NCBI GenBank assembly: GCA_002238865.1
Contig: MPNE01000016.1
Span: 1-64,000, forward strand
Source of the DNA: Gemmatimonadetes bacterium bin94
GTDB lineage: Bacteria; Gemmatimonadota; Gemmatimonadetes; Longimicrobiales; Gaopeijiaceae
DNA: 64,000 nucleotides
Direction of reading: 5' to 3'
The translations under genes and the position numbers were made by a program. The notes beneath the pieces are model-generated. The model did not search any database and was not told the DNA's origin. It was given only the letters and a program-made list of their open reading frames with translations. Shown one piece after another: positions 44,852 through 61,760 of the stretch. Within the stretch, counting starts at the first letter, position 1. Every line of letters starts with the position of its first letter.

Positions 44852-45559
44852 ATGGCTGAGCCGAGACTCTGGACCGGTACCAGCGGGTTCTCCTACAAGG
44901 AGTGGAAGGGGAGCTTCTACCCCGAAAAGCTGCCGGCGAACCGGATGCTGGAGTACTACTCGCGGCAACTGAGCAGCGTCGAGATCAACAACACCTTCTA
45001 CCGCCTGCCGCGGGCCGAGATGCTGGAGAAGTGGGCGTCGACGGTGCCCGACGACTTCGCGTTCGTGCTGAAGGCGAGCCGCAGGATCACCCACATGAAG
45101 CGGCTGAAGGACGCAGGCGATCCGCTGGACTACCTCGTGACGACCGCCGTGGGTGCCCTGGGCGCGCGGCTCGGCCCGATCCTCTTCCAGCTGCCGCCCT
45201 ACCTGCGCAAGGACGTGGAGCGTCTGCGCGATTTCCTGGCCATCGTCCCGGACACCGTTCGCGCCGCCTTCGAGTTTCGCCACGAGAGCTGGTTCGGCGA
45301 CGATGTGTACCAGGCGCTGGCCGACCGCGGGGCCGCGCTGGTCACGGCCGACACGGGCGAGGGCGAGGCCCCCGTGGTGGAGACGGCGGGATTCGGGTAT
45401 GCGCGGCTGAGGCGGCCCGGGTACGGGGAGGCGGAGTTGCGTGACTGGGCAGCCGCGCTGAGGCGGTCGGCGTGGAGCGATGTCTTCGTCTTCTTCAAGC
45501 ACGAGGACGAGGGGGCCGGACCGCGCATGGCGGCGGGGTTTCGGGGGGTGTGGGGGTAG
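44852..45559 (+). CDS. DUF72-family protein
   Basis: Predicted 235 aa from ATG 44852, with GGGAGGGAG upstream. Hallmarks: WTGTSGFSYKEWKGSFYPE at the N-terminus, VEINNTFYRLP, FAFVLKASRRITHMKRL, FQLPPYLRKD and FEFRHESWF. DUF72 is a TIM-barrel family found widely; its biochemical role is not settled, and structural similarity suggests sugar or nucleic-acid-related chemistry. No signal peptide, so cytoplasmic. It stands alone between the alpha/beta-hydrolase (divergent) and hipA (convergent). Confidence 0.92.
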   Translation: MAEPRLWTGTSGFSYKEWKGSFYPEKLPANRMLEYYSRQLSSVEINNTFYRLPRAEMLEKWASTVPDDFAFVLKASRRITHMKRLKDAGDPLDYLVTTAVGALGARLGPILFQLPPYLRKDVERLRDFLAIVPDTVRAAFEFRHESWFGDDVYQALADRGAALVTADTGEGEAPVVETAGFGYARLRRPGYGEAELRDWAAALRRSAWSDVFVFFKHEDEGAGPRMAAGFRGVWG

Positions 45560-47833: not shown

Positions 47834-48799
47834 ATGATCATCCGCATCAGGAATAACAGCGACATCCCCTCCTCGGAGATCACACCCGAGTCGGCGTACA
47901 TCAACCGCCGCAAGTTCCTGGGAGCGTCCGCCGGCATCGGCGCGGCCGCCTTCCTGGCGCGCGGCGCGGCCGCGGCACCCTCCGGCGCGCCTGCGCACGC
48001 CGCCCACCTGGCCGCCCGGCAGGACGAGGAGCCCAACACCTTCGAGGAGATCACCAGCTACAACAACTTCTACGAGTTCGGTCTCGACAAGAAGGATCCG
48101 TCGAAGTACGCGCCGAGCAGGCTCGTCACCGAACCGTGGACCGTCAAGGTCGACGGGCTCTGCAACAACCCGGCCGACTACCAGCTCGAGGACTTCATCA
48201 AGCCGTCGACGATCGAGGACCGCACCTACCGGCTGCGCTGCGTGGAAGCCTGGTCGATGGTCGTCCCCTGGCGGGGCTTCCCGCTGGCGGACGTGATCAG
48301 GCGTGCCGAACCCACCGCCGCCGCAAAGTACGTCTCCTTCGCGACGCTGTGGGACCCGGAGCAGATGCCCGAGCGTCGCTGGCGGCCGGTAATCGACTGG
48401 CCCTACCGCGAAGGGCTGCGCCTGGACGAGGCGCTCCATCCCCTTTCGCTCCTCGTCACGGGCCTGTACGGCAAGGACCTCCCCGCCCAGAACGGGGCGC
48501 CGCTCAGGCTGATAGTGCCGTGGAAGTACGGCTTCAAGAGCATCAAGTCGATCGTGGGCATCACGTTCACCGAAGACGAGCCACCCACGACCTGGGCGAC
48601 CCAGAGCCCCCGCGAGTACGGCTTCTATTCGAACGTCAATCCCGACGTGAGCCACCCGCGCTGGAGCCAGGCGACCGAAAAGCGGATCGACAGCAGCAAG
48701 CTCTTCGGGTACCGCCGTATCGACACGCAGTTCCTGAACGGATACGCGGACGAGGTGGCGCACATGTACGAGGGGATGGACCTCCAGAAGCACTTCTGA
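47834..48799 (+). CDS. msrP: MsrP, molybdopterin protein-methionine-sulfoxide reductase catalytic subunit
   Basis: Predicted 321 aa from ATG 47834, with AGGAG 6 nt upstream. A Tat signal is present (N24-RR-KFLGASAG), as needed for a folded molybdoenzyme. The Mo-ligand Cys is C136 in YRLRCVEAWSMVVPW, and the family motifs YGFKSIKSIVGI, PREYGFYSNVNP and ending near YEGMDLQKHF match YedY/MsrP closely. MsrP repairs oxidised methionine in periplasmic proteins, using electrons delivered by MsrQ from the respiratory chain. The msrQ gene follows after 2 nt. Confidence 0.95.
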   Translation: MIIRIRNNSDIPSSEITPESAYINRRKFLGASAGIGAAAFLARGAAAAPSGAPAHAAHLAARQDEEPNTFEEITSYNNFYEFGLDKKDPSKYAPSRLVTEPWTVKVDGLCNNPADYQLEDFIKPSTIEDRTYRLRCVEAWSMVVPWRGFPLADVIRRAEPTAAAKYVSFATLWDPEQMPERRWRPVIDWPYREGLRLDEALHPLSLLVTGLYGKDLPAQNGAPLRLIVPWKYGFKSIKSIVGITFTEDEPPTTWATQSPREYGFYSNVNPDVSHPRWSQATEKRIDSSKLFGYRRIDTQFLNGYADEVAHMYEGMDLQKHF

Positions 48800-48801
48800 C
48801 G

Positions 48802-49554
48802 GTGGAGCCGACGAAGGCGGCGGCAACGGTCGGATCCACGGGGGCGGCCCGTCGGCCACAAGCGGCTGGTCAGCCACGAGCGGCCCATCGGTCGGGAGCG
48901 GCCCGGTCGGCCAACCCGAAGCGCCAGATCCTCCTCATCAAGACCGCGGTCTGGATCATAGGGCTGACGCCGCCCATCTGGCTCACCGCAGGCCTCTTCC
49001 GCCGCACCCTCGGTATCAACCCCGTCGAGACCATCATCCTCGTCGAGGGGCGCTGGACCCTTGTTTTCCTCATCGCGACGATGGCCGTCACGCCCATCCG
49101 CCGCCTCTCGAAGTGGAACCGCGTCGTCCAGCTCCGGCGCCTTCTGGGCCTCTTCGCCTTCTTCCACGCCTGCGTGCATTTCCTGTCGTACTTCGGGATC
49201 GATCAGCTTTTCCAGCTGCAGTACATCCTCGAGGACGTCCTGGAGCGCCGCTACATCACGGCCGGGTTCTCGGCGCTGGTCCTGATGATCCCCCTTGCGG
49301 TAACATCGACGAAGGGCTGGATCCGGCGTCTGGGGAAGCGCTGGCAGAAGCTTCACCGGCTTTCCTACGTTGCGGCATCCCTGGGGGTGCTTCACTTCTA
49401 TTGGAAGGTCAAGGCGGACACCTTCTGGCCCCTCGTGGCAGCCGTTACCCTGGCCGGACTCTTCGCCGTCAGGTACGCCTACCGGAAGCGGGGGCCGAAG
49501 AGGACCGCCCGGGCCCGCGAGGCAGCGCCGCCGAAGCGGACCGCCCGGGCCTGA
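48802..49554 (+). CDS. msrQ: MsrQ, heme-binding membrane subunit of the MsrPQ system
   Basis: Predicted 250 aa from GTG 48802, 2 nt after the msrP stop. A non-conserved Ala/Arg N-terminal extension precedes about six membrane helices (IKTAVWIIGLTPPIWLTAGLF, WTLVFLIATMAVTPIRRL, LLGLFAFFHACVHFLSYF, ITAGFSALVLMIPLAVTS). His residues in FFHACVHFLSYF, KLHRLSYVAASLGVLHFYW are the expected heme b ligands of the ferric-reductase-like family. TSTKGWIRRLGKRWQKLHRLSY is a strong MsrQ signature. The C-terminus is a basic tail with a repeated PKRTARA element. Confidence 0.94.
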   Translation: MEPTKAAATVGSTGAARRPQAAGQPRAAHRSGAARSANPKRQILLIKTAVWIIGLTPPIWLTAGLFRRTLGINPVETIILVEGRWTLVFLIATMAVTPIRRLSKWNRVVQLRRLLGLFAFFHACVHFLSYFGIDQLFQLQYILEDVLERRYITAGFSALVLMIPLAVTSTKGWIRRLGKRWQKLHRLSYVAASLGVLHFYWKVKADTFWPLVAAVTLAGLFAVRYAYRKRGPKRTARAREAAPPKRTARA

Positions 49555-49627: not shown

Positions 49628-50518
49628 TTGGCAGGTTCACGGTGGGTTCGCGCCGGGTGGTTGGCGGCGCTGGGCGGGGTCCTCGGACTCGTTGCGGTGA
49701 CCGGTCCGCACGGACACGGCGACGAGATCGAGGCCGGCACCGGCCACACGGCCGCCTCCGCGCCGGCACCGGCGGTTGCGCTCGAATCCGCATCCGCACC
49801 GGCCACTCCCGTCCCGCTCCGGCCCGCCGCATTGAAGCTCCAGCGCCCACCCTCCGAGTGGCACGAGTTCTACTTCACCCGGGCGGCCTACTCGTCCGGC
49901 CGGGGGGGCTGGGGCCGGCGTGGCAATTCGTGGGCGATCGACTATCCCAAGGCCGACCGGCAGTTCCTTACGGTCCTGAAGCGGCTCACCAACCTGGACG
50001 CCTACAGCGACGAAAACGCGGTCCTGCTGACCGACCCTTCCATTCGCCGCTACCCCTTCCTCTACGCCCTTGAAGTCGGCTACATGAGCATGTCGCCTGA
50101 CGAAATCCTGGGGCTTCGCGAATACCTGATGGCGGGCGGCTTCCTGGTGATCGACGACTTCTGGGGATCGCGGGAGTGGGCGCAGTTCGAGTACCAGATG
50201 GGCCTGGTCTTCCCGAACCGTCCCATCATCGAGCTGGACCTCGACCACCCCGTCTTCAGCACCTTCTACGACATCGACGAGATCCTTCAGGTGCCCGCCT
50301 ACGGGCGGTGGGGCGGCCGGACCAGCGAGCGCGACGGGTTCGTGCCGCATGTCAGGGGAATCGAGGACGACGACGGGCGGCTCATGGTCCTCATCAACTG
50401 GAACACGGACCTGGGTGACGCCTGGGAGTGGGCCGAGCAACCCGACTACCCGTTGCACTTCTCGACATTCGCGTTCCAGATGGGCGTGAACATGATCATC
50501 TACGGCATGAGCCACTGA
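49628..50518 (+). CDS. DUF4159 protein (first of two), exported
   Basis: Predicted 296 aa from TTG 49628, chosen because GGAGGAAGG lies 5 nt upstream and the result is a proper signal/anchor (GWLAALGGVLGLVAVTG). After a Pro/Ala-rich spacer comes the DUF4159 domain: WHEFYFTRAAYSSGRGGWGRRG, DYPKADRQFLTVLKRLTNLD, VLLTDPSIRRYPFLYALEVG, LREYLMAGGFLVIDDFWGS and the C-terminal GVNMIIYGMSH. DUF4159 has a class I amidotransferase-like fold without the catalytic Cys. It is typical near MoxR/VWA clusters in Bacteroidota, Planctomycetota and Gemmatimonadota; function unknown. Followed 7 nt later by the VWA protein. Confidence 0.83.
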   Translation: MAGSRWVRAGWLAALGGVLGLVAVTGPHGHGDEIEAGTGHTAASAPAPAVALESASAPATPVPLRPAALKLQRPPSEWHEFYFTRAAYSSGRGGWGRRGNSWAIDYPKADRQFLTVLKRLTNLDAYSDENAVLLTDPSIRRYPFLYALEVGYMSMSPDEILGLREYLMAGGFLVIDDFWGSREWAQFEYQMGLVFPNRPIIELDLDHPVFSTFYDIDEILQVPAYGRWGGRTSERDGFVPHVRGIEDDDGRLMVLINWNTDLGDAWEWAEQPDYPLHFSTFAFQMGVNMIIYGMSH

Positions 50519-50525
50519 GGGCCCC

Positions 50526-52823
50526 ATGAGCGGCGTCTTCGAGTTCCTCTTCAAGTACCGTCCCGTCCTCTACCAGGAGGGCGACTTCACGTTTCTTTCG
50601 CCCTGGCCGCTGGGAACGATGGCGATCATCGCCGCGGTGCTCGCGGTGCCCGCGGTGCTCACCTACGCCCGCGCCCGCGGCAAGAGCCGGGCAGCCGACC
50701 GCTGGGTGCTGGCAACTCTCCGGGGCGCGGCGTTCATCCTGCTGTTCTTCATCGTCATGCAACCGGGGCTGGTGCTGACGTCGGTCGTGCCGCAGCGGAA
50801 CTTCCTGGCCGTGCTCGTCGACGACTCCCGCAGCATGACCATCGACGACCGGGACGGATCCTCCCGCGCGGAGAAGGCCGCGGGGCTCCTCGATCCGGAG
50901 GGCGACCTGGTCGATGCGCTCAACGAGGACTTCGCCGTCCGCTACTTCCGCTTCTCGTCCGCGCCGGCAAGGATCGACGGCGTGGACGCGCTGACGTTCG
51001 ACGGCAGCAACACGCGGATCGGCAGTGCGCTGGACTACGCCCGCAACGAGCTGCAGGGCGTGCCGCTCTCGGGCGTGGTGGTCGTCTCCGACGGCGGGGA
51101 CAACACCGACGAAGCCCTCAGCGAGGCGCTGCTCCCGCTCCGCGCCGCGTCGGTGCCCGTCTTCACGGTCGGATTGGGGGACGAAGAGATGGAAGCCGAC
51201 GTGCAGGCCAGCCGCGCGGAGGTGCCGGAGCAGGCGCTGGCAGGCACCTCGATGGTGGTCACCGTGATCGTGGACGCCCGCGGGTTCGCGGGGCGCACGG
51301 TTCCTATCGTGGTCGAGGACATGGGCCGGATCGTCGCCACCGAGGAAGTGACCCTACCGGACGACGGGCAGCCACTCGTCGCACCGATCGCGATCACGCT
51401 GGACACCGAGGGCGCCCGCGAGCTGACCTTCAGGATCCCGGGGCAGCCGGGCGAACGCGTCCTGGAGAACAACGAACTGCACGCGGTGGTGCAGGTCCGG
51501 AACCGTACCGAGAAGATCCTCTACTTCGAGGGCGAGCCCCGCCACGAGGTCGCCTTCATGCTCCGCGCCGTGCGCCACGACGAGAACCTGCAGGTCGTGC
51601 TTCTCCAGCGCACCGCCGAGAACAAGTTCTTCCGTCGCAACCTGGATGACCCGCTCGAACTCGTGCAGGGCTTCCCCACGACCCGCGAAGAGCTCTACCG
51701 CTACCGCGCGCTCGTGCTGGGGTCGGTCGAGGCCAGCTTCTTCACCCACGACCAGCTCGACATGATCGCGGACTTCGTGAGCGCCCGCGGCGGCACGCTG
51801 CTCATGCTGGGAGGCCGCCGCGCCCTTTCCGAGGGGGGCTACCAGGGGACCCCGCTCGAAGACGTCCTCCCGGTCGTGCTGAACGAACCCGGGTCGTCCA
51901 CGCCGACCGAACGGCTGGCCTTCGTCAAGGTCGCGCCCACCCCCGCCGGAGCGAACCACCCGGCCACAAGGATCGAAGGCACGGTCGAGCAGTCCGCCGC
52001 GAGGTGGGACTCGCTGCCGCCGGTGACCACGACCAACGTCGTGACGGGGCTGAAGCCGGGGGCGACCGAACTGCTCGAGGGCACGGTGGTCGACGGGGGC
52101 GACGGGGTGGAACCGGACCGCGTGGTGATGGCGTTCCAGGGGTACGGCAAGGGTCGCTCGATGGTGCTCGCGGTGCAGGACACCTGGCTGTGGCAGATGG
52201 ACCACACGGTCCCGATCGAGGACCAGAGCCACGAGACCTTCTGGAAGCAGCTGCTGCGCTGGCTGGTGTCCGAGACGCCGGACCCGGTCGAGGCCCAGCC
52301 CGAGCGCGAGTCGGTGGAGGTCGGCGAGCCGGTTACCCTCGAGGCCACCGTGCTGGACGAGGGCTTCGTGGAGGTGAACGGCGCACTCGTGACTGCCCGC
52401 GTGACAACCCCCACCGGCGAGGCGCGCGACCTGCCGATGGAGTGGTCGGTCACCGAAGACGGCAAGTACGCCGTTTCGTTCACGCCCGATATGGAAGGGC
52501 TCTTCGAGGTGTCGGTGGACGCTGGCCGGGACACGGTCGCTCTCGGTTCGGCCGACACGAGCGTGCGCGTGGCCCCCGGCGGCGAGGAGTACCGCAATCC
52601 TCACCAGCGCCGAAGCCTCATGGAGCGCATCGCCGATGAGACCGGCGGCCGCTACTACACCGCGGAAACCGCAAACCGGCTGCCCGAGGACCTGCAGTTC
52701 AGCGGCGGCGGCGTCACCGTCACCGAGGAGCGCGACCTGTGGGACATGCCGGTCCTCTTCCTGCTGCTCGCAGGGTTGCTGGGGGCGGAGTGGGGATACA
52801 GGCGGAAGCGGGGGTTGGCGTGA
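50526..52823 (+). CDS. Membrane protein with VWA and amidotransferase-like domains
   Basis: Predicted 765 aa from ATG 50526. Two N-terminal helices (LGTMAIIAAVLAVPAVLTYA and TLRGAAFILLFFIVMQPGLVL) and one at the C-terminus (MPVLFLLLAGLLGAEWGY) anchor it. The VWA domain has a complete MIDAS-type DxSxS (VDDSRSMTIDD) and VVVVSDGGDNTDEA. A class I glutamine-amidotransferase-like domain follows (YRALVLGSVEASFFTHDQLDMIADFVSARGG, LLMLGGRRALSEGG), then beta-sandwich domains. The architecture matches BatA-like proteins expected to work with MoxR ATPases. The stop overlaps the caspase-like start (GTGA). Confidence 0.84.
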   Translation: MSGVFEFLFKYRPVLYQEGDFTFLSPWPLGTMAIIAAVLAVPAVLTYARARGKSRAADRWVLATLRGAAFILLFFIVMQPGLVLTSVVPQRNFLAVLVDDSRSMTIDDRDGSSRAEKAAGLLDPEGDLVDALNEDFAVRYFRFSSAPARIDGVDALTFDGSNTRIGSALDYARNELQGVPLSGVVVVSDGGDNTDEALSEALLPLRAASVPVFTVGLGDEEMEADVQASRAEVPEQALAGTSMVVTVIVDARGFAGRTVPIVVEDMGRIVATEEVTLPDDGQPLVAPIAITLDTEGARELTFRIPGQPGERVLENNELHAVVQVRNRTEKILYFEGEPRHEVAFMLRAVRHDENLQVVLLQRTAENKFFRRNLDDPLELVQGFPTTREELYRYRALVLGSVEASFFTHDQLDMIADFVSARGGTLLMLGGRRALSEGGYQGTPLEDVLPVVLNEPGSSTPTERLAFVKVAPTPAGANHPATRIEGTVEQSAARWDSLPPVTTTNVVTGLKPGATELLEGTVVDGGDGVEPDRVVMAFQGYGKGRSMVLAVQDTWLWQMDHTVPIEDQSHETFWKQLLRWLVSETPDPVEAQPERESVEVGEPVTLEATVLDEGFVEVNGALVTARVTTPTGEARDLPMEWSVTEDGKYAVSFTPDMEGLFEVSVDAGRDTVALGSADTSVRVAPGGEEYRNPHQRRSLMERIADETGGRYYTAETANRLPEDLQFSGGGVTVTEERDLWDMPVLFLLLAGLLGAEWGYRRKRGLA

Positions 52824-53830
52824 AGAGCGGCGCGGGCCTCCCGGCCGCCACGGCGGCGCTCCTGGCCACCGCCCTGCTTCCGGCGGCGCTCATCGCGCAG
52901 AACACCCATGTGCTCCTGATCTCGGGGCTGGGCGGCGAAGCTCGCTACTCGGAAGCGTTTCACGGCTGGCTGAGCCGCTTCGCCGACGCGGCGACGGAGA
53001 AGCACGGCGTCCCCCCGGAGAGGATCACCTATCTGGGCGAGAACACCGACCTCGACCCCACGCGCATCCGCGCGCGGTCGACCGCCGACAACATCCGGGC
53101 CGCGTTTGCGGAGATCGCCGCCTCCATGGCCCCCGCGGACGAGTTCGTCGTCCTCCTCGCGGGCCACGGGACGTTCAGAGACGAGACGGCGCGCTTCAAC
53201 ATCCCGGGACCGGACCTGACCCCCGACGAATGGAACGGCCTGCTGGCGGGTCTCGGGGACCGCCGCGTCACCTTCGTCAACACGGCGAGCGCCTCGGGGC
53301 CATTCGTCGGGGCGCTGTCCGCGCCGAACCGGACCATCATCACCGCGACCCGGACCGGGAGGGAGCGCAACATGACCCGCTTCGGGCTCCATTTCGTGGA
53401 CGCGTTCGCGGACGACGGCGCCGACGCGGACAAGGATTCCCGCATCTCGATGCTGGAGGCGTTCGGCTACGCGCTGCGAGAGGTCCAGCGCGAGTACGAG
53501 GGCGACAACCAGCTCCTGACCGAGCACGCTGTACTGGACGACAACGGCGACAGCGAGGGCAGCCGGGAGATGGACGACCTGGAGGGAGACGGCGCGCTGG
53601 CCCGCACGGTTTTCCTGGCGTCGATGGGAGGAGCCGCGGGCGACGACGCCGTGACCCCGGCGCTGCGCGCGCTCTACCAGGAAAAGGCCGCCATCGAGGC
53701 GCGGATCGCCGAGTTGCGGAGCGTGAAGGCGCAGCTGCCGCTGGAGCGGTACGAGGACGAGCTGGAAGCGCTTCTGGTGGAGCTCGCGCTCAAGAATCGT
53801 GAGATTCGGGCGGGCGGGGGGAGTGGGTAG
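52820..53830 (+). CDS. Caspase/legumain-like (C13-type) fold protein lacking the catalytic Cys
   Basis: Predicted 336 aa from GTG 52820. A signal peptide (AATAALLATALLPAALIAQ) is followed by HVLLISGLGGEARYSEAF, the peptidase C13-like opening strand. The His of the dyad is H116 (LLAGHGTFRDE). The second strand, where a catalytic Cys should follow the hydrophobic run, reads RVTFVNTASASGPFVGAL, with no Cys. The protein is therefore probably inactive as a protease, although the fold is kept. A C-terminal coiled coil (YQEKAAIEARIAELRSVKAQLPLERYEDELEALLVELAL) suggests oligomerisation. It sits between the VWA protein and the TPR metalloprotease. Confidence 0.76.
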   Translation: MKSGAGLPAATAALLATALLPAALIAQNTHVLLISGLGGEARYSEAFHGWLSRFADAATEKHGVPPERITYLGENTDLDPTRIRARSTADNIRAAFAEIAASMAPADEFVVLLAGHGTFRDETARFNIPGPDLTPDEWNGLLAGLGDRRVTFVNTASASGPFVGALSAPNRTIITATRTGRERNMTRFGLHFVDAFADDGADADKDSRISMLEAFGYALREVQREYEGDNQLLTEHAVLDDNGDSEGSREMDDLEGDGALARTVFLASMGGAAGDDAVTPALRALYQEKAAIEARIAELRSVKAQLPLERYEDELEALLVELALKNREIRAGGGSG

Positions 53831-53840
53831 GGCTCCCGGC

Positions 53841-56534
53841 ATGCGTGCGGCTCCAACCCTTCTGCTCGGCCTCGCCAGCGGCGCGATTCTGGTGGTGGCA
53901 TCGCCGCCGGATGTCCTGGCTGCCGCCGCGCCGCACGCCCCACAAGCCGCGGCCGTGGGCCAGGAAGCCGCCGGGTTTGCCGCGCTGCGGGCAGGGCGCT
54001 ACGACGAGGCCGTGCGGGAGTTGCGCCCGGCAGCCCTCGATGGGGGCGCCGCCGCGGTATCCGGGTGGGTCACGGCGCTGCGGGAGACCGGCGACTACGA
54101 GAGCGCCGTCGAGGCAGCCGAACGGGGGGTGCAGCGCGGCGTGACCGGAGCGCGCGCGCTCCTCGGGGCCGCGCTGATGGACGTTGGCCGTGTGCGCGAG
54201 GCGCGCACCGCGCTGGAGGCGGGGGCCGGGGAGCGGGGGGTGGCGGGAGCGCTGGCACGGGTCGAACTGGGGATCCTGGAGTACCGCTACGGCGACCGTG
54301 ACGTCGCCCGCGCCCTCTTCGACGGATTCATCGACTACTACAACAGCGCACGGAGCCTCTCGGCGGCGGAGCTCACGGCGGTGGGGCGCGCGCTCGTCCA
54401 CCTGTCCCGCTGGAACTACGAGTACGCCCACGACGCGCTGACCGCCCTGGTCGAAGCGGTCGCGGCCGGGCCCCTGGACCACACGGCCCGGCTCGCCATC
54501 GCCCAGCTCTTCCTGGAACGCTACGACGCCAACGAGGCGGCGGCCGCCTTCCAGGAAGTCCTCGCGGAAAACCCGTCCCACCCGGCGGCGCTTCTCGGCC
54601 TGGCCCGCGTGGCGCGCCTTGAAGGCGGCGGCGATCCGGTGGCGGCGCTGGAAGGGGCGCTGGCCACCAACCCGAAGCTGGCGGGTGCCCGCACCCTCAT
54701 GTCCCGCCTGCGCCTCATGGACGGGAACCGGGGCGAGGCGCTGGAGGAAGTGGACCGCGTCCTGGAGGTCAACGGAAGCGACCTGGACGCGCTGGGGACA
54801 AGGGCCGCGATCCTGCACCTGGCAGGGGACGATTCCGGATTCGGCGCAGTCATGCGGCGGATCCGCTCGCTCACCGGGTCGCCCACCGCGCCCTACCTGG
54901 TCCTCGCCGAGCTCGCCGCCGACCATCGCAAGTACCGAGACGCGCTCGCTTTTGCGCGCGCCGCCACCGAGGCCGACGCCGACAGCTGGACCGGGTGGGG
55001 CCTCATGGGGTTGAACCAGGTCCGCCTGGGACGGGTCGAGGAGGGCCGGATCAACCTGGAGCGGGCGTTCGCCGGAGATCCCTTCAACCTCTGGTTCAAG
55101 AACACCCTGGACCTGTTGGACACCTTCACCGAGTATCGCGTGGTCGAGACGCCGCACTTCCGGCTGGTGCTGCACACTTCGGAGGCCGACCTCCTGGCGC
55201 CATACATGGAGCCCATCGCCGAACGCGCGTACGAGGAGATGTCACGGCGGTACGGCTACACTCCCGCCGAACCGATCCGGGTCGAGGTCTACCCGCGCCA
55301 CGCCGACTTCTCGGTACGCACGGTCGGCCTGGTGGGGATCGGCGCGCTGGGGGTGAGCTTCGGGCCCGCGCTCGCCATGGACTCGCCGGCCGCGCGGGGC
55401 CGGGGCGACTTCAACTGGGCCTCCACCCTGTGGCACGAGATCGCCCACTCATTCCACATCGGCGTGTCCGACAGCGAGGTGCCGAGATGGTTCTCGGAAG
55501 GGTTGGCCGTGCACGAGCAGCGCAAGGCGGCCGCCGGTTGGGGGCATCAGGCCGGCGTTGGCTTCATCCGGTCGCTGGCGTCGGGGGAGATGCGGCCCGT
55601 GAGCGAGCTGGACAGGGGGTTTTCGAGCCCGCGCCACCCCGGAGAAGTGGTCGAGAGCTACTACCAGGCCTCGCTCGTCTTCGAACTCATCGAGGAGCGG
55701 CACGGCTTTGGGGCCATCGTGGAGATGCTGCTGGCGTACCGTGACGGAGCCACCAACGCCGACGCGTTCGAGACCGCGCTGGGGGTCCGCCTGGAGGACT
55801 TCGACGACGACTTCGAGGACTTCCTGAAGGACCGCTTCGCGGCCGCGCTGGCCTCGGTGGGAGGGGAGCAGCCCGACGGGATGGTCGGTCCGATGGGCCT
55901 CGTGGCCGTACCCGACATCGCCACCCTCGAGGCCGCGGTCGTGCGCAATCCCCGCCGCTTCGCGCCCCGCATGGCCCTCGGGCAGGCCCTGTTCCGGGAA
56001 GATCGCCGCGCGGAGGCGGCGGAACACTTCGAGGCCGCGCTCGAGATGTTCCCCCAGTACGGCGGTCCCGACGGCGCGCACTGGTTCCTGGGCCGGATCA
56101 GGGAGGCGGAGGGCGACGCGGCGGCGGCGATCGCGCACTACCGGGCCCTCCTCGGCCTCAACGAGAGCCACTACGACGCGCGCACGGCGCTGGCCGGGCT
56201 CCTGAGCGGCGGAGGGGACCCGGCGGGGGCGGCCGAGGCGTTGCGACACGTCGCCTACATCCACCCCTACGAGATCGAGGACCACGAGCGCCTGGCCACC
56301 TGGATGGAAGCGGCAGGCGACCTTGACGGCGCCGTCGCCGAGCGGCGCGCGATCGTCGCGCTCGACCCCGTGGACAGGGCGGCTGCCCACTTCCGGCTGG
56401 CACTCGCCCTCCATCTGAACGGAGACCCGGCCGGGGCGCGAAGCGCGGTGCTCGCAGCGCTCGAGATCGCCCCCAACTACGAGGCAGCGCTCGATCTGCT
56501 GCTGGAGCTGCGCCGGGGAGGGCAGCGCCGATGA
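53841..56534 (+). CDS. TPR-repeat protein with a peptidase-MA-like zinc protease domain
   Basis: Predicted 897 aa from ATG 53841; a GTG at 53823 is possible. After a signal peptide (LLLGLASGAILVVASP) there are TPR-like repeats (residues about 45-400), then a gluzincin domain: TLWHEIAHSFHIG with H532, E533, H536, followed by WFSEGLAVHEQ supplying the third ligand Glu. More TPRs close the protein (AAEHFEAALEMFPQYGG and later). This is the peptidase_MA_2/TPR arrangement of exported proteins of unknown substrate. Unlike its neighbours it keeps a full catalytic motif. ATGA overlap with the second DUF4159 gene. Confidence 0.85.
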   Translation: MRAAPTLLLGLASGAILVVASPPDVLAAAAPHAPQAAAVGQEAAGFAALRAGRYDEAVRELRPAALDGGAAAVSGWVTALRETGDYESAVEAAERGVQRGVTGARALLGAALMDVGRVREARTALEAGAGERGVAGALARVELGILEYRYGDRDVARALFDGFIDYYNSARSLSAAELTAVGRALVHLSRWNYEYAHDALTALVEAVAAGPLDHTARLAIAQLFLERYDANEAAAAFQEVLAENPSHPAALLGLARVARLEGGGDPVAALEGALATNPKLAGARTLMSRLRLMDGNRGEALEEVDRVLEVNGSDLDALGTRAAILHLAGDDSGFGAVMRRIRSLTGSPTAPYLVLAELAADHRKYRDALAFARAATEADADSWTGWGLMGLNQVRLGRVEEGRINLERAFAGDPFNLWFKNTLDLLDTFTEYRVVETPHFRLVLHTSEADLLAPYMEPIAERAYEEMSRRYGYTPAEPIRVEVYPRHADFSVRTVGLVGIGALGVSFGPALAMDSPAARGRGDFNWASTLWHEIAHSFHIGVSDSEVPRWFSEGLAVHEQRKAAAGWGHQAGVGFIRSLASGEMRPVSELDRGFSSPRHPGEVVESYYQASLVFELIEERHGFGAIVEMLLAYRDGATNADAFETALGVRLEDFDDDFEDFLKDRFAAALASVGGEQPDGMVGPMGLVAVPDIATLEAAVVRNPRRFAPRMALGQALFREDRRAEAAEHFEAALEMFPQYGGPDGAHWFLGRIREAEGDAAAAIAHYRALLGLNESHYDARTALAGLLSGGGDPAGAAEALRHVAYIHPYEIEDHERLATWMEAAGDLDGAVAERRAIVALDPVDRAAAHFRLALALHLNGDPAGARSAVLAALEIAPNYEAALDLLLELRRGGQRR

Positions 56535-57409
56535 CGAAGCCGTCCCTTGCCCGGCTCGCCGTGTTTGCAGGGCTCGGGATCCTCGTGGCGGGCACCGGGC
56601 TGCTCGCCGGCGGACCCGAAAAGCGGTCCGCCGACCGGACCGGGGCCCTCGCCAACGACACGCACGCATTCCGGGAATCCGCACCCGCCCCGGTTTTCGC
56701 GGCCGACCCGTCGAGTTCGGTCCAGGACTTCCCAGGAGTGCCCTACGACGGCACCTACACCTTCGTCCGCATCCGCTTCAACACCCGGGGCAACCGGGGC
56801 TTTCGCCGGGGCTTCGGTCGCGGCGGCGGCCCGGGCTGGGCGCACGACTACCCGTACGCCGACGACAATTTCATCAAGATCCTCGACGAGGTGACGCTGC
56901 TGGGCCCCAACACCGAGGGCACGAACGTCCTCGACGCGAGCGACCCCGAGCTGCACCGCTACCCGATCGCGTACGTCTCGGAGCCGGGGGAGTGGGCTCC
57001 CACCCAGGCCGAGGCCGACAACCTGGCCGCGTACCTGCGGAAGGGCGGCTTTCTGATCCTCGACGACTTCCGCAGCGACTACGAATGGAGCAACGTCGAG
57101 GCCATCTTCAATGTGCTCCTCCCGGGCCACCGCTTCCGCGTGCTCGACGTCGAGGAGCCCATCTTCAGCTCGTTCTTCGAGATCGAGACCCTTGAGCTTC
57201 CGCCGCCCACATTCCAGCAGTACGAGCCCCTGTTTCTCGGTCTCCACGAGGACGACGACCCCGAAGGCCGCCTGATGGTCATCGCCAACTTCAACAACGA
57301 CATCGGCGACTACTGGGAGTACTCGGACCTGGGCTACGTCCCCATCGACCTGTCCAACGAGGCGTACAAGTTCGGCGTCAACTACGTGATTTACGCGATG
57401 AACCGGTAG
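56531..57409 (+). CDS. DUF4159 protein (second of two), exported
   Basis: Predicted 292 aa from ATG 56531, overlapping the TPR-protease stop. A signal/anchor (LAVFAGLGILVAGTGLLAGG) precedes the domain: YTFVRIRFNTRGNRGF, DYPYADDNFIKILDEVTLLG, VLDASDPELHRYPIAYVSE, LAAYLRKGGFLILDDFRSDYEW and ending FGVNYVIYAMNR. It is clearly paralogous to the gene at 49628 but well diverged. The Arg/Gly-rich motif NRGFRRGFGRGGGPG corresponds to the GRGGWGRRG of the first copy. A gap of about 200 nt separates it from the MoxR gene, which probably has its own promoter. Confidence 0.84.
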   Translation: MTKPSLARLAVFAGLGILVAGTGLLAGGPEKRSADRTGALANDTHAFRESAPAPVFAADPSSSVQDFPGVPYDGTYTFVRIRFNTRGNRGFRRGFGRGGGPGWAHDYPYADDNFIKILDEVTLLGPNTEGTNVLDASDPELHRYPIAYVSEPGEWAPTQAEADNLAAYLRKGGFLILDDFRSDYEWSNVEAIFNVLLPGHRFRVLDVEEPIFSSFFEIETLELPPPTFQQYEPLFLGLHEDDDPEGRLMVIANFNNDIGDYWEYSDLGYVPIDLSNEAYKFGVNYVIYAMNR

Positions 57410-57606
57410 GACGCTTCGCTGCGGCGCGCGGTGGTCAGCCAACGGATCGCACGTCCCGGCTGTCATACACATGGACTGCGCGTTCCGTTTGTCCGCCCAA
57501 CATTCGACCGATTAGCTTTCCCGCATGCCGCCGTGGCGCGGGCCGCTCTACAGGAGCGCCTGCCCCGGCATTGCCGACCAACAGACCCCTTCAGCGCTGG
57601 CCGACC

Positions 57607-58638
57607 GTGACCGAAACCCTGACAGCCCCCGCCCCCGAGCCCATGGCCGACGTCGCCCTCGCCCGCCGCATCCAGGAGGGGCGCGAGAAGATCCTCGACG
57701 AGGTCCGCAAGATCATCATCGGACAGGACGAAGCCGTCGAGCAGGTTCTGCTGACCCTGTTCGTGGGCGGCAACAGCCTCCTGGTCGGGGTGCCCGGACT
57801 TGCCAAGACGCTGCTGATCCACTCGATCGCACAGGTGCTGGATCTGGACTTCTCCCGCATCCAGTTCACGCCGGACCTGATGCCGTCGGACATCACGGGC
57901 ACCGATATCATCCAGCAGCGGGGAGACGGAAGCCGCGGGCTGGAATTCGCGGCCGGGCCCATCTTCGCCAACGTGGTCCTCGCCGACGAGATCAACCGCA
58001 CGCCGCCGAAGACCCAGGCCGCCCTTCTGGAGGCCATGCAGGAGCATCGGGTCACCGTGCAGGCCAACACCTACGAACTCGACCCGCCCTTCTATGTCTT
58101 TGCGACACAGAACCCGATCGAACTGGAAGGCACCTACCCGCTGCCCGAGGCACAGCTGGACCGGTTCATGTTCCACATCCGAATGGAACACCTCGAAGAG
58201 GACGAGGAGATGCAGGTCGTTCAGGAGACCACTGACGAGGAGGAGCCCGAGCTGAGCCCGGTGGTCTCCAAGGCTGACCTGATCGCCTTTCAGGATCTGG
58301 TGCGCCGCGTCCCGGTCGCAGAGCCGGTCATGCGCTACGCGGTCAACCTGGTGCGCGCCAGCCGGCCGAGTCCGAACGGTGGACATGACTTCGTGAAGAA
58401 GTGGATCTCGCACGGAGCCAGCGTGCGGGCGGCCCAGTACCTGATCCTGGGGGGAAAGGCCCGCGCGCTTACCCAGGGACGACTGACGGTGAGCTTCGAG
58501 GACATCCAGGCGCTCGCCCAGCCGGTCATGCGGCACCGCATCATCACGAACTTCCACGCCGAGTCGGAGGGGCGGACGACAGACGAGCTGGTGGCCTTGC
58601 TGCTCAAGGCGGTTCCACTCCCTGCATCCGGGATGTAG
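57607..58638 (+). CDS. MoxR-family AAA+ ATPase
   Basis: Predicted 343 aa from GTG 57607; TTG 57571 and ATG 57643 are alternatives and none has a good ribosome site. AAA motifs: Walker A GVPGLAKT, Walker B VVLADEIN, sensor 1 FATQNPIELEG, and the MoxR-specific TPDLMPSDITGTDI and PLPEAQLDRFMF with the Arg finger region. MoxR ATPases act as chaperones that load metal or remodel VWA partner proteins. Three VWA proteins are encoded around it (50526, 58696, 59607). A stretch of acidic residues (TTDEEEPELSP) marks the lid insertion. Confidence 0.92.
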   Translation: MTETLTAPAPEPMADVALARRIQEGREKILDEVRKIIIGQDEAVEQVLLTLFVGGNSLLVGVPGLAKTLLIHSIAQVLDLDFSRIQFTPDLMPSDITGTDIIQQRGDGSRGLEFAAGPIFANVVLADEINRTPPKTQAALLEAMQEHRVTVQANTYELDPPFYVFATQNPIELEGTYPLPEAQLDRFMFHIRMEHLEEDEEMQVVQETTDEEEPELSPVVSKADLIAFQDLVRRVPVAEPVMRYAVNLVRASRPSPNGGHDFVKKWISHGASVRAAQYLILGGKARALTQGRLTVSFEDIQALAQPVMRHRIITNFHAESEGRTTDELVALLLKAVPLPASGM

Positions 58639-58695: not shown

Positions 58696-59610
58696 ATGGC
58701 CACCACATCGCCGTCGGTGCGCGCGTCCTTCCTCGATCCCACCGTGCTGGCGAGGATCGACAACCTGGAGCTGCTCGCGCGGACGGTGGTCGACGGGTTC
58801 CTGCAGGGCATCCACCGCTCTCCCTACCTGGGCGTGAGCATGGACTTCGCCGAGCACCGCCAGTACATGCCCGGCGACGACATCCGCAGGATCGACTGGC
58901 GATTGTACGCCCGCACCGACCGGTTCTACATCAAGCAGTTCGAAGCCGAGACCAACGCCGATGTCGCGTTCCTTCTGGACACGTCGGCGTCCATGGGGTA
59001 CGGCTCCGGCGAGACGAGCAAGCTGGACTACGCCCGCTACCTGACCGCCAGCCTGGCCTACTTCTCGGCCGGGCAGAAGGACCGAGTGGGGCTCTACGCC
59101 TTCGACGACGACGTCGTGGAACACGTGCGGCCGTCGGGTGCCCACCTCGACAAGGTGCTGCACGCCGTGGCGCGGGTGAAGGCGAACCGGAAGGGAAGCT
59201 GGGACAAGCCGCTGGCGCGTGTTGCCAACACCTTCCGCCGCCGGGGAATCCTGGTCGTCGCGTCCGACTTCTACGACGATCCGAACGAGATATCCGCCGC
59301 CCTCGGCTTCTTCCGCGCCCAGGGTCACGATATGGTCGCCTTCCACATCCTGGACCCCGCCGAGATCGATTTCCCGTTCTTCCAGGCGGCCAACTTCCAG
59401 GACCTCGAAACGCGTGAAATCCTCCCCGTGACCCCGGAGAAGTACGCCACCGAGTATCAGCGGCACGTGCGTGCCCACATCGATGCGCTGGGCAAGCTGT
59501 GCGGCAAGCACGGGGTCGACTACGTGCTCCTGAACAGCTCCGAGCCCCTGGACGAGGCGCTGTATGCGTACCTGGCCTTCCGCCAGAAGAGAGTGAGGAG
59601 TCCGCGTTGA
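58696..59610 (+). CDS. DUF58 protein (VWA-like, MoxR partner)
   Basis: Predicted 304 aa from ATG 58696. The DUF58 signature YMPGDDIRRIDWRLYARTDR is exact, followed by FYIKQFEAETNADVAFLLDTSASM, which contains a MIDAS-type DTSAS. Additional motifs: KDRVGLYAFDDDV and GILVVASDFYDDP. No transmembrane segments, so it is probably cytoplasmic and membrane-associated through partners. The MoxR-DUF58-BatA order is a classic conserved cassette. Its stop overlaps the BatA-like start as TTGA. Confidence 0.92.
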   Translation: MATTSPSVRASFLDPTVLARIDNLELLARTVVDGFLQGIHRSPYLGVSMDFAEHRQYMPGDDIRRIDWRLYARTDRFYIKQFEAETNADVAFLLDTSASMGYGSGETSKLDYARYLTASLAYFSAGQKDRVGLYAFDDDVVEHVRPSGAHLDKVLHAVARVKANRKGSWDKPLARVANTFRRRGILVVASDFYDDPNEISAALGFFRAQGHDMVAFHILDPAEIDFPFFQAANFQDLETREILPVTPEKYATEYQRHVRAHIDALGKLCGKHGVDYVLLNSSEPLDEALYAYLAFRQKRVRSPR

Positions 59611-61694
59611 GCTTCCTCACTCCTCTTTTCCTGATCGCGCTGGCCGGACTGGCGATCCCGGTGCTGATTCACCTGACCCGCCACGAGCGCGGCAAGCCGT
59701 TGCGGTTCCCTTCCCTGATGTTCCTTGAACGGATCCCGTTCCAGGAGTCGTCCAGGCGGCGCATCAGGCACTGGCTCCTTCTGGCGATCCGCCTGACCGC
59801 CCTTGCGCTGCTGGTCGCCGCTTTCGCGCGTCCCTTCGTGCGCGGAGGCCGCCTTGCGTCGGTCGGGGGACCCGGGCCCGAGGAGGTGGTCATCCTGCTC
59901 GACCGCTCCTATTCCATGGAGTTCGGCGACAACTGGAACCAGGCCGTCGCGCAGGCGCGGGCAGTTGCCGGGACGCTGAGGCCGCAGGACCGCGTGTCGC
60001 TCATCACCTTCTCCGAGACTCCGACCCTCGTCCACCGCTCGATCAACGACCCGCAGAGGGTCGCGGCCACGCTGGACACCCTCCGCACCGGCTCTCTCTC
60101 CACGCGTCTGGCACCGGCCGTGAAGCTCGCGGCGTCGACCCTCGCGGCTTCCACTCTGCCCAGGCAGCGCGTTGTCCTGATCAGCGACTTCCAGCGCACG
60201 GGGTGGCGGCCCGATCCCGACGCGACCCTCCCCGAGGCCGTGACCGTCGAGCCCGTCGTGATCGGGACCGAGAGCACCGGGAACCTGGCGCTGTCCGACC
60301 TCGAACTTCGCCGCGAGGCCGCCGGGGGGCGCGAACGGGTCACCGTGCAGGCGCGGCTTGTGAACACCGGCGTGAGCGACGCGGCCACCGATGTCACGCT
60401 GTCGGTGGACGAGACCGACATCGGCACCGTGTCGGTCTCGGCTCCGGCCGGGGGCGCGACGCCGGTCGCCTTCGATCCCTTCACGCTGACGACGACCTTC
60501 ACGCGCGGCGAAGTACGCCTCGCCGACGAAGCCGGACTGCGGCAGGACAACACGCTCAACTTCGTCGCCTCACCGGGCGGCGATCTCGAGGTTCTCGTCG
60601 TCGATCCCCTGGGCACGGGCACCTCCAACCTCTACCTGCGCGGCGCGCTCGGGATCGCGGAAGGCGCGGGGTTCGCCCCCCGGGTCGTGCGGGGCGCTCC
60701 CACCGAGGAGCAGCTGGCTGCCGCGGACGTGGTCGTCCTGAACGGCGGGCCCTTCCCCGGCGGAAACCCCGGCGACCGCCTGCGCGCTTTCGTCGAGGGC
60801 GGCGGGGGCGTGCTCTTCGTCCTCGGGGAGCGCAGCCTGGTCCCGTCGGTGCACGCCGATTTCCTTCCGGCCACGGTCGGACCGGTTTCGGGCGCGGACA
60901 GCGAGCGCCGGCTCGGCTTTGTCGACTACGACCACGTGATTTTCGAGGCATTCCGCGGACCGCGGTCGGGGGATTTTTCACGGGCCGCCTTCTACCGTAC
61001 CCGCACACTCGATGTAACGGACGGACAGGTGGTGGCGCGCTTCGACGACGGGTCTGCGGCACTGGTGGAAGGCAGGCGCGGCAAGGGGCGGATCCTCGTG
61101 TGGGCCACCGGGATGGACCGGTTCTGGAACAACCTGCCTCTGCAGCCCGTCTACCTGCCTTTCGTGCACCGGATCACCCGGTACCTGGGCGGTGGCGGCG
61201 AAGTTCCGCCCTGGCACGTCGCGGGCTCGACGGTAAATCTTGCTACACTGGCGGATGCGGCCGGATCGTTGGAACTTCCCGAGGGCGCAGTGGCCATGGA
61301 GCCGGGTGGCGGCTCGGTAGCGCTGGACGAAACCAATGCTCTGCTGAGGCTGGATGCCCGGGGGATCTGGGAGATCAGGCCCCCGGGGCAGCGGCCGGAC
61401 CACCCCTTCGCCCTGGCCGTCAACGTTGATGTGGCAGAGTCGGACATGACGAAGCTGGATGTGGAGGAGTTCCTCGGCGCGCTCGGTGGCGAGGAAGTGA
61501 CGGACGGGCCCTCGGATCAGGCGGAGGCGGCGGGCGACGTGACTGCCGAGGTGGAGGCGGCGGACTTCGAGAAGAGGCAGTCGTTCTGGCGCTACTTGCT
61601 TGCAGCGGCTTTCATGCTGATGCTCTCCGAGACGGTGCTTGCCAACCGGCTGTCGAAGGATCCGATCAAGGAGGGGTCGGCCGTGGTGGGCTGA
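59607..61694 (+). CDS. BatA-like membrane protein with VWA and amidotransferase-like domains
   Basis: Predicted 695 aa from TTG 59607, overlapping the DUF58 stop, with GTGAGGAG upstream. N-terminal BatA domain: FLTPLFLIALAGLAIPVLIHL, then IRHWLLLAIRLTALALLVAAFA. The VWA MIDAS is LLDRSYSMEFG (DxSxS complete) with RVVLISDFQRTGW. Ig-like domains follow, then an amidotransferase-like fold (VVVLNGGPFPGGNPGDRLRAFVEGGGG, FVLGERSLVPS) and a C-terminal helix (YLLAAAFMLMLSETVLAN). It is the larger paralogue of the type seen at 50526. Expected topology places the VWA in the periplasm. Confidence 0.86.
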   Translation: MSFLTPLFLIALAGLAIPVLIHLTRHERGKPLRFPSLMFLERIPFQESSRRRIRHWLLLAIRLTALALLVAAFARPFVRGGRLASVGGPGPEEVVILLDRSYSMEFGDNWNQAVAQARAVAGTLRPQDRVSLITFSETPTLVHRSINDPQRVAATLDTLRTGSLSTRLAPAVKLAASTLAASTLPRQRVVLISDFQRTGWRPDPDATLPEAVTVEPVVIGTESTGNLALSDLELRREAAGGRERVTVQARLVNTGVSDAATDVTLSVDETDIGTVSVSAPAGGATPVAFDPFTLTTTFTRGEVRLADEAGLRQDNTLNFVASPGGDLEVLVVDPLGTGTSNLYLRGALGIAEGAGFAPRVVRGAPTEEQLAAADVVVLNGGPFPGGNPGDRLRAFVEGGGGVLFVLGERSLVPSVHADFLPATVGPVSGADSERRLGFVDYDHVIFEAFRGPRSGDFSRAAFYRTRTLDVTDGQVVARFDDGSAALVEGRRGKGRILVWATGMDRFWNNLPLQPVYLPFVHRITRYLGGGGEVPPWHVAGSTVNLATLADAAGSLELPEGAVAMEPGGGSVALDETNALLRLDARGIWEIRPPGQRPDHPFALAVNVDVAESDMTKLDVEEFLGALGGEEVTDGPSDQAEAAGDVTAEVEAADFEKRQSFWRYLLAAAFMLMLSETVLANRLSKDPIKEGSAVVG

Positions 61695-61760
61695 GCAGGG
61701 CTGCCCGAGGAGGCATGGGGCGGGATCGTGACAGATTCCGTGACAGATAAGGGGGGGAAT

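Follow-up and report, generated by a model that had tools for sequence, protein, structure and literature searches.

A legumain/metacaspase-like protein without the catalytic Cys as a candidate peptide-binding companion of VWA proteins in Gemmatimonadota and Acidobacteriota

The window analyzed in this study is a stretch of 64,000 nucleotides from Gemmatimonadetes bacterium bin94 (GenBank assembly GCA_002238865.1, contig MPNE01000016.1, positions 1 to 64,000 of the forward strand). One of its genes, located at 52820-53830 on the + strand, encodes a protein of 336 amino acids that is predicted to have the fold of the clan CD peptidases legumain and metacaspase and that lacks the catalytic Cys, as do all other aligned members of its family. 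The favored explanation, to which a probability of about 0.58 is assigned, is that this protein is an exported pseudo-legumain that has lost its nucleophile, has kept its pocket, and binds peptide uncut as a companion of a VWA/MoxR complex.

The coding sequence begins with GTG and ends with TAG at 53828-53830; its start overlaps by four bases with the TGA that terminates the VWA gene upstream. Homologues were found down to approximately 30% identity, mostly with the same gene order, and the frame is therefore real; a chance or false reading frame was ruled out by these homologues and their synteny. The Pfam and NCBIfam scans assigned the window protein itself to no family. A hydrophobic N-terminus was found in 114 of 120 family members, and the protein is probably exported, as judged from its sequence. 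The following features were located in the gene:

52820..53830, + strand: Cys-less legumain/metacaspase-like coding sequence, 336 amino acids, with homologues in 148 of 298 genomes of the phylum
52820..52900, + strand: predicted export signal, residues ~1-27, with a hydrophobic stretch at residues 6-27
52901..53566, + strand: predicted caspase-fold (clan CD) domain, residues ~28-249, placed by the VIA matches of two models
53165..53167, + strand: His116, the catalytic His position (GHG at 115-117, in LLAGHGTF)
53288..53290, + strand: Ser157, in the column of the catalytic Cys
53294..53296, + strand: Ser159 of the xSG motif
53423..53458, + strand: EF-hand-like loop, residues 202-213 (DADKDSRISMLE)
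53534..53554, + strand: second acidic loop LDDNGDS, residues 239-245 (D241 in 139 and G243 in 116 of 146 aligned rows)
53657..53812, + strand: C-terminal two-helix hairpin, residues ~280-331 (model helices 280-301 and 308-331)

The AlphaFold model of the window protein was built from 11 sequences and has a mean predicted local distance difference test score (pLDDT) of 61.6 and a predicted template modeling score (pTM) of 0.60. Its first Protein Data Bank matches in Foldseek were legumain (7fql_E at the top, E 3.7e-6), metacaspase, and a SAVED-CHAT protein. In VIA-align, model residues 28-244 matched metacaspase-4 (6w8s_C) with Z 18.4 (root-mean-square deviation 2.9, 195 residues aligned), and residues 24-243 matched human legumain (5lua_A) with Z 16.9 (deviation 3.1, 194 aligned). 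Another model, led by a 52%-identical homologue (L040), has a mean pLDDT of 61.2 and the same fold (Z 17.5 and 16.8). At the level of sequence, a profile of 61 members matched metacaspase-4 with E 1.8e-5 and legumain weakly, with E 0.14. The C13 model (PF01650) was matched at E<=0.1 by 31 of 61 members and over its cut-off by three, from genomes G085, G458, and G431; no PF01650 match was found for the window protein in the Pfam scan. Peptidase_C14 was likewise not matched by the window protein and was matched by only one of 61 members (E 0.017). In the window's genome as a whole, there was no match to C13 at E<=1e-5 and none to C14 at E<=0.01. The preliminary description of this gene, made from the letters of the sequence, had called the protein caspase-like, which agrees with the predicted legumain/metacaspase-type fold; the nearest named relatives, however, are legumain (family C13) and metacaspase and not the caspases proper.

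The catalytic positions were compared in an alignment of 170 rows scoring >150 bits, 146 of which were kept at <90% identity, with the partial row L111 left out; the counts of rows below refer to these 146. Column 116 contains His in 145 rows and Gln in one, and Gly117 follows in 144. Column 157, the position of the catalytic Cys, contains Ser in 124 rows, Thr in 14, Pro in four, Ala in two, and Asp and Glu in one each, and never Cys. In column 158, Ala was found in 105 rows, Ser in 19, Gly in 14, Cys and Val in three each, and Thr in two; column 159 contains Ser (144) or Ala (2), and column 160 contains Gly (134), Phe (7), Ala (4), or Ser (1). The catalytic Cys with which strand 4 ends in C13 and clan CD peptidases was found in 0 of the 146 rows. 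In the window protein, the predicted Cys strand is VTFVNTASASGPF (NTASASGPF, residues 154-162), and Cys is absent nearby. The claim of the preliminary description that the His is kept and the Cys is missing was thus confirmed; closely related proteins encoded at the locus and bearing a catalytic Cys, which would have contradicted it, were sought, and none was found among the 146 rows. The motif NxxSASGPF, for which conservation had been asked, is partly conserved: besides the columns given above, N154 is present in 109 rows and F162 in 121, but P161 in only 32. A point loss of the Cys specific to this metagenome-assembled genome was ruled out by the same count.

The register of column 157 was checked with relatives that do contain Cys. 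In the family profile, the Cys of L171, L172, L173, and L174 aligns on Ser157, L173 being aligned via its second Cys, which is directly preceded by an insertion of one residue. The C13-like protein L176 (MEQCYSGAF) agrees with this register in a profile comparison (probability 94.3, E 9.7e-8), in which the motif is preceded by a gap of one residue. Three homologues from the second phylum (L152, L158, and L163), forming one supported group in the tree, have Cys in column 158 (TCSG or SCSG), i.e., one residue past the catalytic column. These three rows hint at a family of cysteine proteases still at work, in which a Cys located elsewhere or provided by a partner completes the site. This reading is very improbable: the other 143 rows, the window protein among them, have no Cys at 156-160, and in the five relatives the Cys aligns one residue before Cys158.

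In the tree, a quick one with support from the Shimodaira-Hasegawa-like approximate likelihood ratio test (SH-aLRT) only, a minimum of six changes is required for the state "neither Ser nor Thr" at column 157, and of 11 for Ser. Such repeated gain or loss of the non-Ser/Thr state would hardly be compatible with a required Ser nucleophile, and Ser157 as a strict nucleophile was set aside on these grounds. The same columns bear on a broader proposal, namely, that the family represents serine-type clan CD hydrolases, in which His116 would activate Ser157 or Ser159 of an active protease, esterase, or transpeptidase. Such an activity would fit the conservation of His116 and Ser159, the presence of Ser or Thr at 157 in 138 rows, and the strong conservation of the pocket-side loops described below. 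It fits poorly with the Pro, Ala, Asp, or Glu found at 157 in eight rows, and Thr rarely substitutes for Ser as a nucleophile. Ser159 is two residues beyond the Cys column; because Ser is found there in four of the five Cys-bearing relatives and the model helix starts at 160, this residue looks inherited and structural. To our knowledge, clan CD is known solely for cysteine peptidases. A serine-nucleophile hydrolase is unlikely, and less likely than a peptide-binding pseudo-legumain. Its more specific form, in which His116 and Ser159 (or Ser157) would hydrolyze or transfer a peptide or ester under the control of Ca2+ in the cell envelope of Gemmatimonadota and Acidobacteriota, is regarded as quite unlikely. 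As a separate observation, the single row in which Gln replaces His116 (L113, genome G269) also has Pro157 in a gene that is otherwise syntenic; with both replacements in one row, the two catalytic positions were lost together.

In clan CD, the active site is borne by the loops at the C-terminal strand ends, herein referred to as the pocket side. Column entropies of these loops were calculated for 133 rows at <80% identity, with the strand ends taken from the model; the test was not blind, because the strand ends were chosen after a 94-row conservation table had been seen. With this limit, the pocket-side loops had a mean entropy of 1.26 bits, lower than that of both the opposite strand ends (2.45 bits, p 2.6e-5) and the remainder of the domain (1.95 bits, p 5e-4). 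Among 325 columns, the entropy ranks of H116, S159, and S157 are 6, 11, and 52, respectively. A catalytic column that drifts while the His and the pocket side stay is the pattern expected of a ligand-binding pseudo-protease, and the conserved pocket-side loops argue for ligand binding over an inert scaffold. Almost fixed positions are G36, G39, H116, G117, G130, D132, S159, R171, T177, D202, E213, and E235; six of them (G130, D132, R171, D202, E213, and E235) are located outside the loops compared.

Several of these observations weigh against a pseudo-legumain that binds without cutting. Column 157, for all its drift, is itself well kept, as its rank and the 138 rows with Ser or Thr indicate, and His116 and Ser159 are stricter than a pure scaffold requires; catalysis through another residue is possible. 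Moreover, G130, D202, E213, and E235, beyond the loops compared, are as fixed as the loop columns. The two models are also modest in their mean pLDDT, with several loops below 50, including 118-125 and 178-185.

The EF-hand-like loop follows the 12-residue pattern DxDxDGxxSxxE, which is strict in 131 rows, with D202 and E213 present in all 146; among 46824 12-mers, no other matches this pattern. The Pfam model EF-hand_5 is matched weakly, by six of 61 members at E<=0.1. A looser form of the loop was found in L171-L174 and L176. The loop is thus common to the family and its Cys-bearing bacterial relatives and is therefore probably ancestral. Ca2+ bound in this loop would probably hold the pseudo-legumain in shape.

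A coiled coil had been proposed for the region after the domain. The C-terminal part is indeed conserved, L285, L299, Y311, L315, and E316 being among the 40 lowest-entropy columns, but its form in the model is that of a two-helix hairpin. This hairpin would be a likely contact with a partner. It also suits an alternative in which the protein has no free ligand and is instead a structural VWA-complex subunit, its pocket side being conserved only as a protein-protein interface, e.g., with the VWA or TPR protein. The near-constant VWA neighbor described below is in line with such a subunit, and a scaffold role is considered possible for pseudo-proteases by Klemencic et al. (2019; PMC6426788). 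Conservation is not confined to the hairpin, however, and extends to the catalytic His and its surrounding loops. A purely structural subunit is thus possible but rather doubtful.

The Cys-less gene is part of a widely kept gene order, consisting of DUF4159, VWA, the Cys-less gene, TPR metalloprotease, DUF4159, MoxR, DUF58, and BatA; in some loci, parts of it are absent or lie elsewhere. In the window, the other genes of this order are the following:

49739..50518, + strand: DUF4159 protein, first copy, start not fixed (PF13709, E 2e-45)
50526..52823, + strand: VWA protein, hydrophobic at 21-39 and 59-80 (PF00092 passes its cut-off, whereas GATase1_like, with E 5.3e-5, does not)
53841..56534, + strand: TPR protein with a Peptidase_MA_2-like metalloprotease domain (PF13432 over cut-off; PF13485 E 1.7e-6, below cut-off)
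56531..57409, + strand: DUF4159 protein, second copy (PF13709, E 2.1e-41)
57571..58638, + strand: MoxR AAA+ ATPase, start not fixed (PF07726, E 1.2e-60; PF20030 bpMoxR also over cut-off, 42.6 vs 27 bits, behind PF07726)
58696..59610, + strand: DUF58 protein (PF01882, E 8.8e-49)
59610..61694, + strand: BatA-type VWA membrane protein, start approximate (PF07584, E 9.6e-19)

For the analysis of gene neighborhoods, loci were taken from 110 of the 148 matching genomes of the window's phylum, as well as 30 loci and 20 regions (16 strong and four distant) from a second phylum, identified as Acidobacteriota by record title. After merging 11 pairs of identical loci, only those with enough flanking DNA were counted. 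The VWA gene is located directly upstream of the Cys-less gene in 151 of 155 distinct loci. The four exceptions are L111, L151, L160, and L161, and in the last three the TPR protease is upstream in the stead of the VWA gene. The TPR metalloprotease was found downstream in 123 of 150 distinct loci and upstream in three; in the other 24, it was not seen in the DNA covered, many of these loci having only ~1.5 kb of downstream DNA. Additionally, 13 genomes without adjacency in the first loci (11 from the window's phylum together with G298 and G299) were checked for the metalloprotease domain, and it was present in all 13. Six of the 11 have the protease on the same strand, starting 2.8-6.0 kb downstream; it is ~21 kb downstream in G017 and on other contigs in four. 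Because the domain was present in every genome checked, and within ~6 kb in six of 11, the locus counts understate the protease. In one genome of the same genus (L037, which is the same locus as L007 of G017), an ATPase with AAA_21/AAA_15 matches (L037:6930-8735) follows the Cys-less gene, in the usual place of the TPR metalloprotease.

At the level of genomes, the presence of both genes was scored in 298 genomes without correction for kinship, the limit being E 1e-20 for VWA, with three candidates scored per genome, versus E 1e-3 for the Cys-less family. Both genes were found in 146 genomes, VWA alone in four, the Cys-less gene alone in two, and neither in 146. Of the six genomes with one gene alone, the matches of G142, G092, and G169 are at or near contig ends. 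The preliminary description had named a VWA protein and a metalloprotease as the flanking genes and had taken this place to fit a docking role, pseudo-caspases often being scaffolds or binding modules. The strictest neighbor is the VWA protein, and the TPR metalloprotease is linked too, less strictly; the protein may dock to the TPR protease.

Other genes in the vicinity were observed as well. The gene row is continued by a DUF4175 protein gene (PF13779) at 61728-63998, which runs off the window. The operon is directly preceded, at 47834-49551, by genes for a molybdopterin oxidoreductase (PF00174) and then a ferric-reductase-like membrane protein (PF01794), a pair resembling the periplasmic methionine sulfoxide reductase pair MsrPQ. 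Further upstream, a HipA-type kinase gene (PF07804, PF13657; 45581-46849, - strand) adjoins a DUF72 gene (44852-45559, + strand).

The 298 genomes searched were sampled evenly over the window's phylum. Eleven relatives were found in named records: eight in Gemmatimonadetes/Gemmatimonadota, one in Longimicrobiales, and two in Acidobacteria. In Acidobacteriota, 65 of 199 genomes matched, including 53 strong matches (E <1e-60), one partial match (G455, E 1.3e-14), and 11 weak ones (E >=2e-10); L171-L174, from four of the 11 weakly matching genomes, are other caspase-like proteins. Two copies each were found in G298 and G299 of this phylum. The scan of viral contigs with the family returned 22 stretches and no relatives, the plasmid search returned one Gemmatirosa record only, and the viral structure library gave only distant matches, including caspase-domain proteins of giant viruses. 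A divergent homologue on a contig of a genome from the window's own family (L110, G279) groups with rows of the second phylum, as a result of either transfer or contamination.

Proteins of this type with a function but no detectable proteolysis have been described in eukaryotes. Metacaspase 4 of Trypanosoma brucei (TbMCA4) and SERA5 of Plasmodium falciparum both have Ser in place of the nucleophilic Cys. The former is described as a pseudopeptidase that retains a function despite being inactive (PMC6657590), and the latter as having an indispensable non-enzymatic role and being able to bind peptides (PMC4671257). Both are eukaryotic and SERA5 is papain-like, and the parallel is thus one of working and not of membership. 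MoxR ATPases and their VWA partners, in turn, are described as remodeling target proteins and inserting metal ions (PMC9976466; PMC13036017). The drift of the catalytic column with a kept pocket parallels SERA5 and TbMCA4, and on this basis the protein is proposed to be a peptide-binding, probably Ca2+-stabilized companion of the VWA protein. Having retained the His and the substrate-side pocket of its clan CD domain after the loss of the nucleophile, the pseudo-legumain would most likely bind a peptide or protein terminus and leave it uncut. Within a putative MoxR-DUF58-VWA-DUF4159 complex, it would work as a near-obligate partner of the VWA protein, which is anchored in the membrane. If the pseudo-legumain is exported, MoxR would need to act via the membrane VWA proteins.

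Among known systems, family C13, which includes legumain and the catalytic subunit of GPI transamidase, shares with the Cys-less family the fold, the HG motif, and the xSG motif after the Cys column, and differs in its catalytic Cys. Clan CD pseudo-variants are already known. The pseudo-orthocaspases (C14B) resemble the family in a bacterial p20-type domain, a broken HC dyad, and a conserved specificity pocket; they are mostly Tyr-Ser (YS) variants, with YA, FS, QC, and HA also found, and come from Alphaproteobacteria and Cyanobacteria (Klemencic et al., 2019; PMC6426788). In contrast, the family described here has kept the His, has Ser/Thr for Cys, and is found in other phyla and another operon, and the window protein has no Pfam C14 match. 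MoxR, vWA, and caspase-like peptidase domains are likewise known to share a neighborhood in the MoxR-vWA ternary conflict systems, where the effectors are interchangeable (eLife, 2020; PMC7159879), whereas here the VWA and caspase-like genes form a near-fixed pair in two phyla. The main text of PMC7159879 mentions neither DUF4159 nor legumain. No published account of the family was found among the titles and abstract starts listed by literature searches, in which subscription journals are thinly covered. These searches returned nothing on a clan CD serine nucleophile with caspase, on legumain with MoxR, or on a pseudo-legumain; matches for caspase-like/Peptidase C13 concerned plant genes and none Gemmatimonadota, and none of the matches listed for DUF4159/MoxR included DUF4159.

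If the proposed explanation is true, a pseudo-protease family accompanied almost invariably by a VWA/MoxR neighbor is widely conserved in two bacterial phyla, and no Pfam or NCBIfam model matches its member in the window. We know of no identified clients of the membrane-type MoxR-VWA complexes, and a peptide-binding companion would then provide a handle on what these complexes recognize. The family is also a good set for asking why the pocket of a dead protease persists, as its 146 natural variants combine a drifting nucleophile column with a conserved pocket side.

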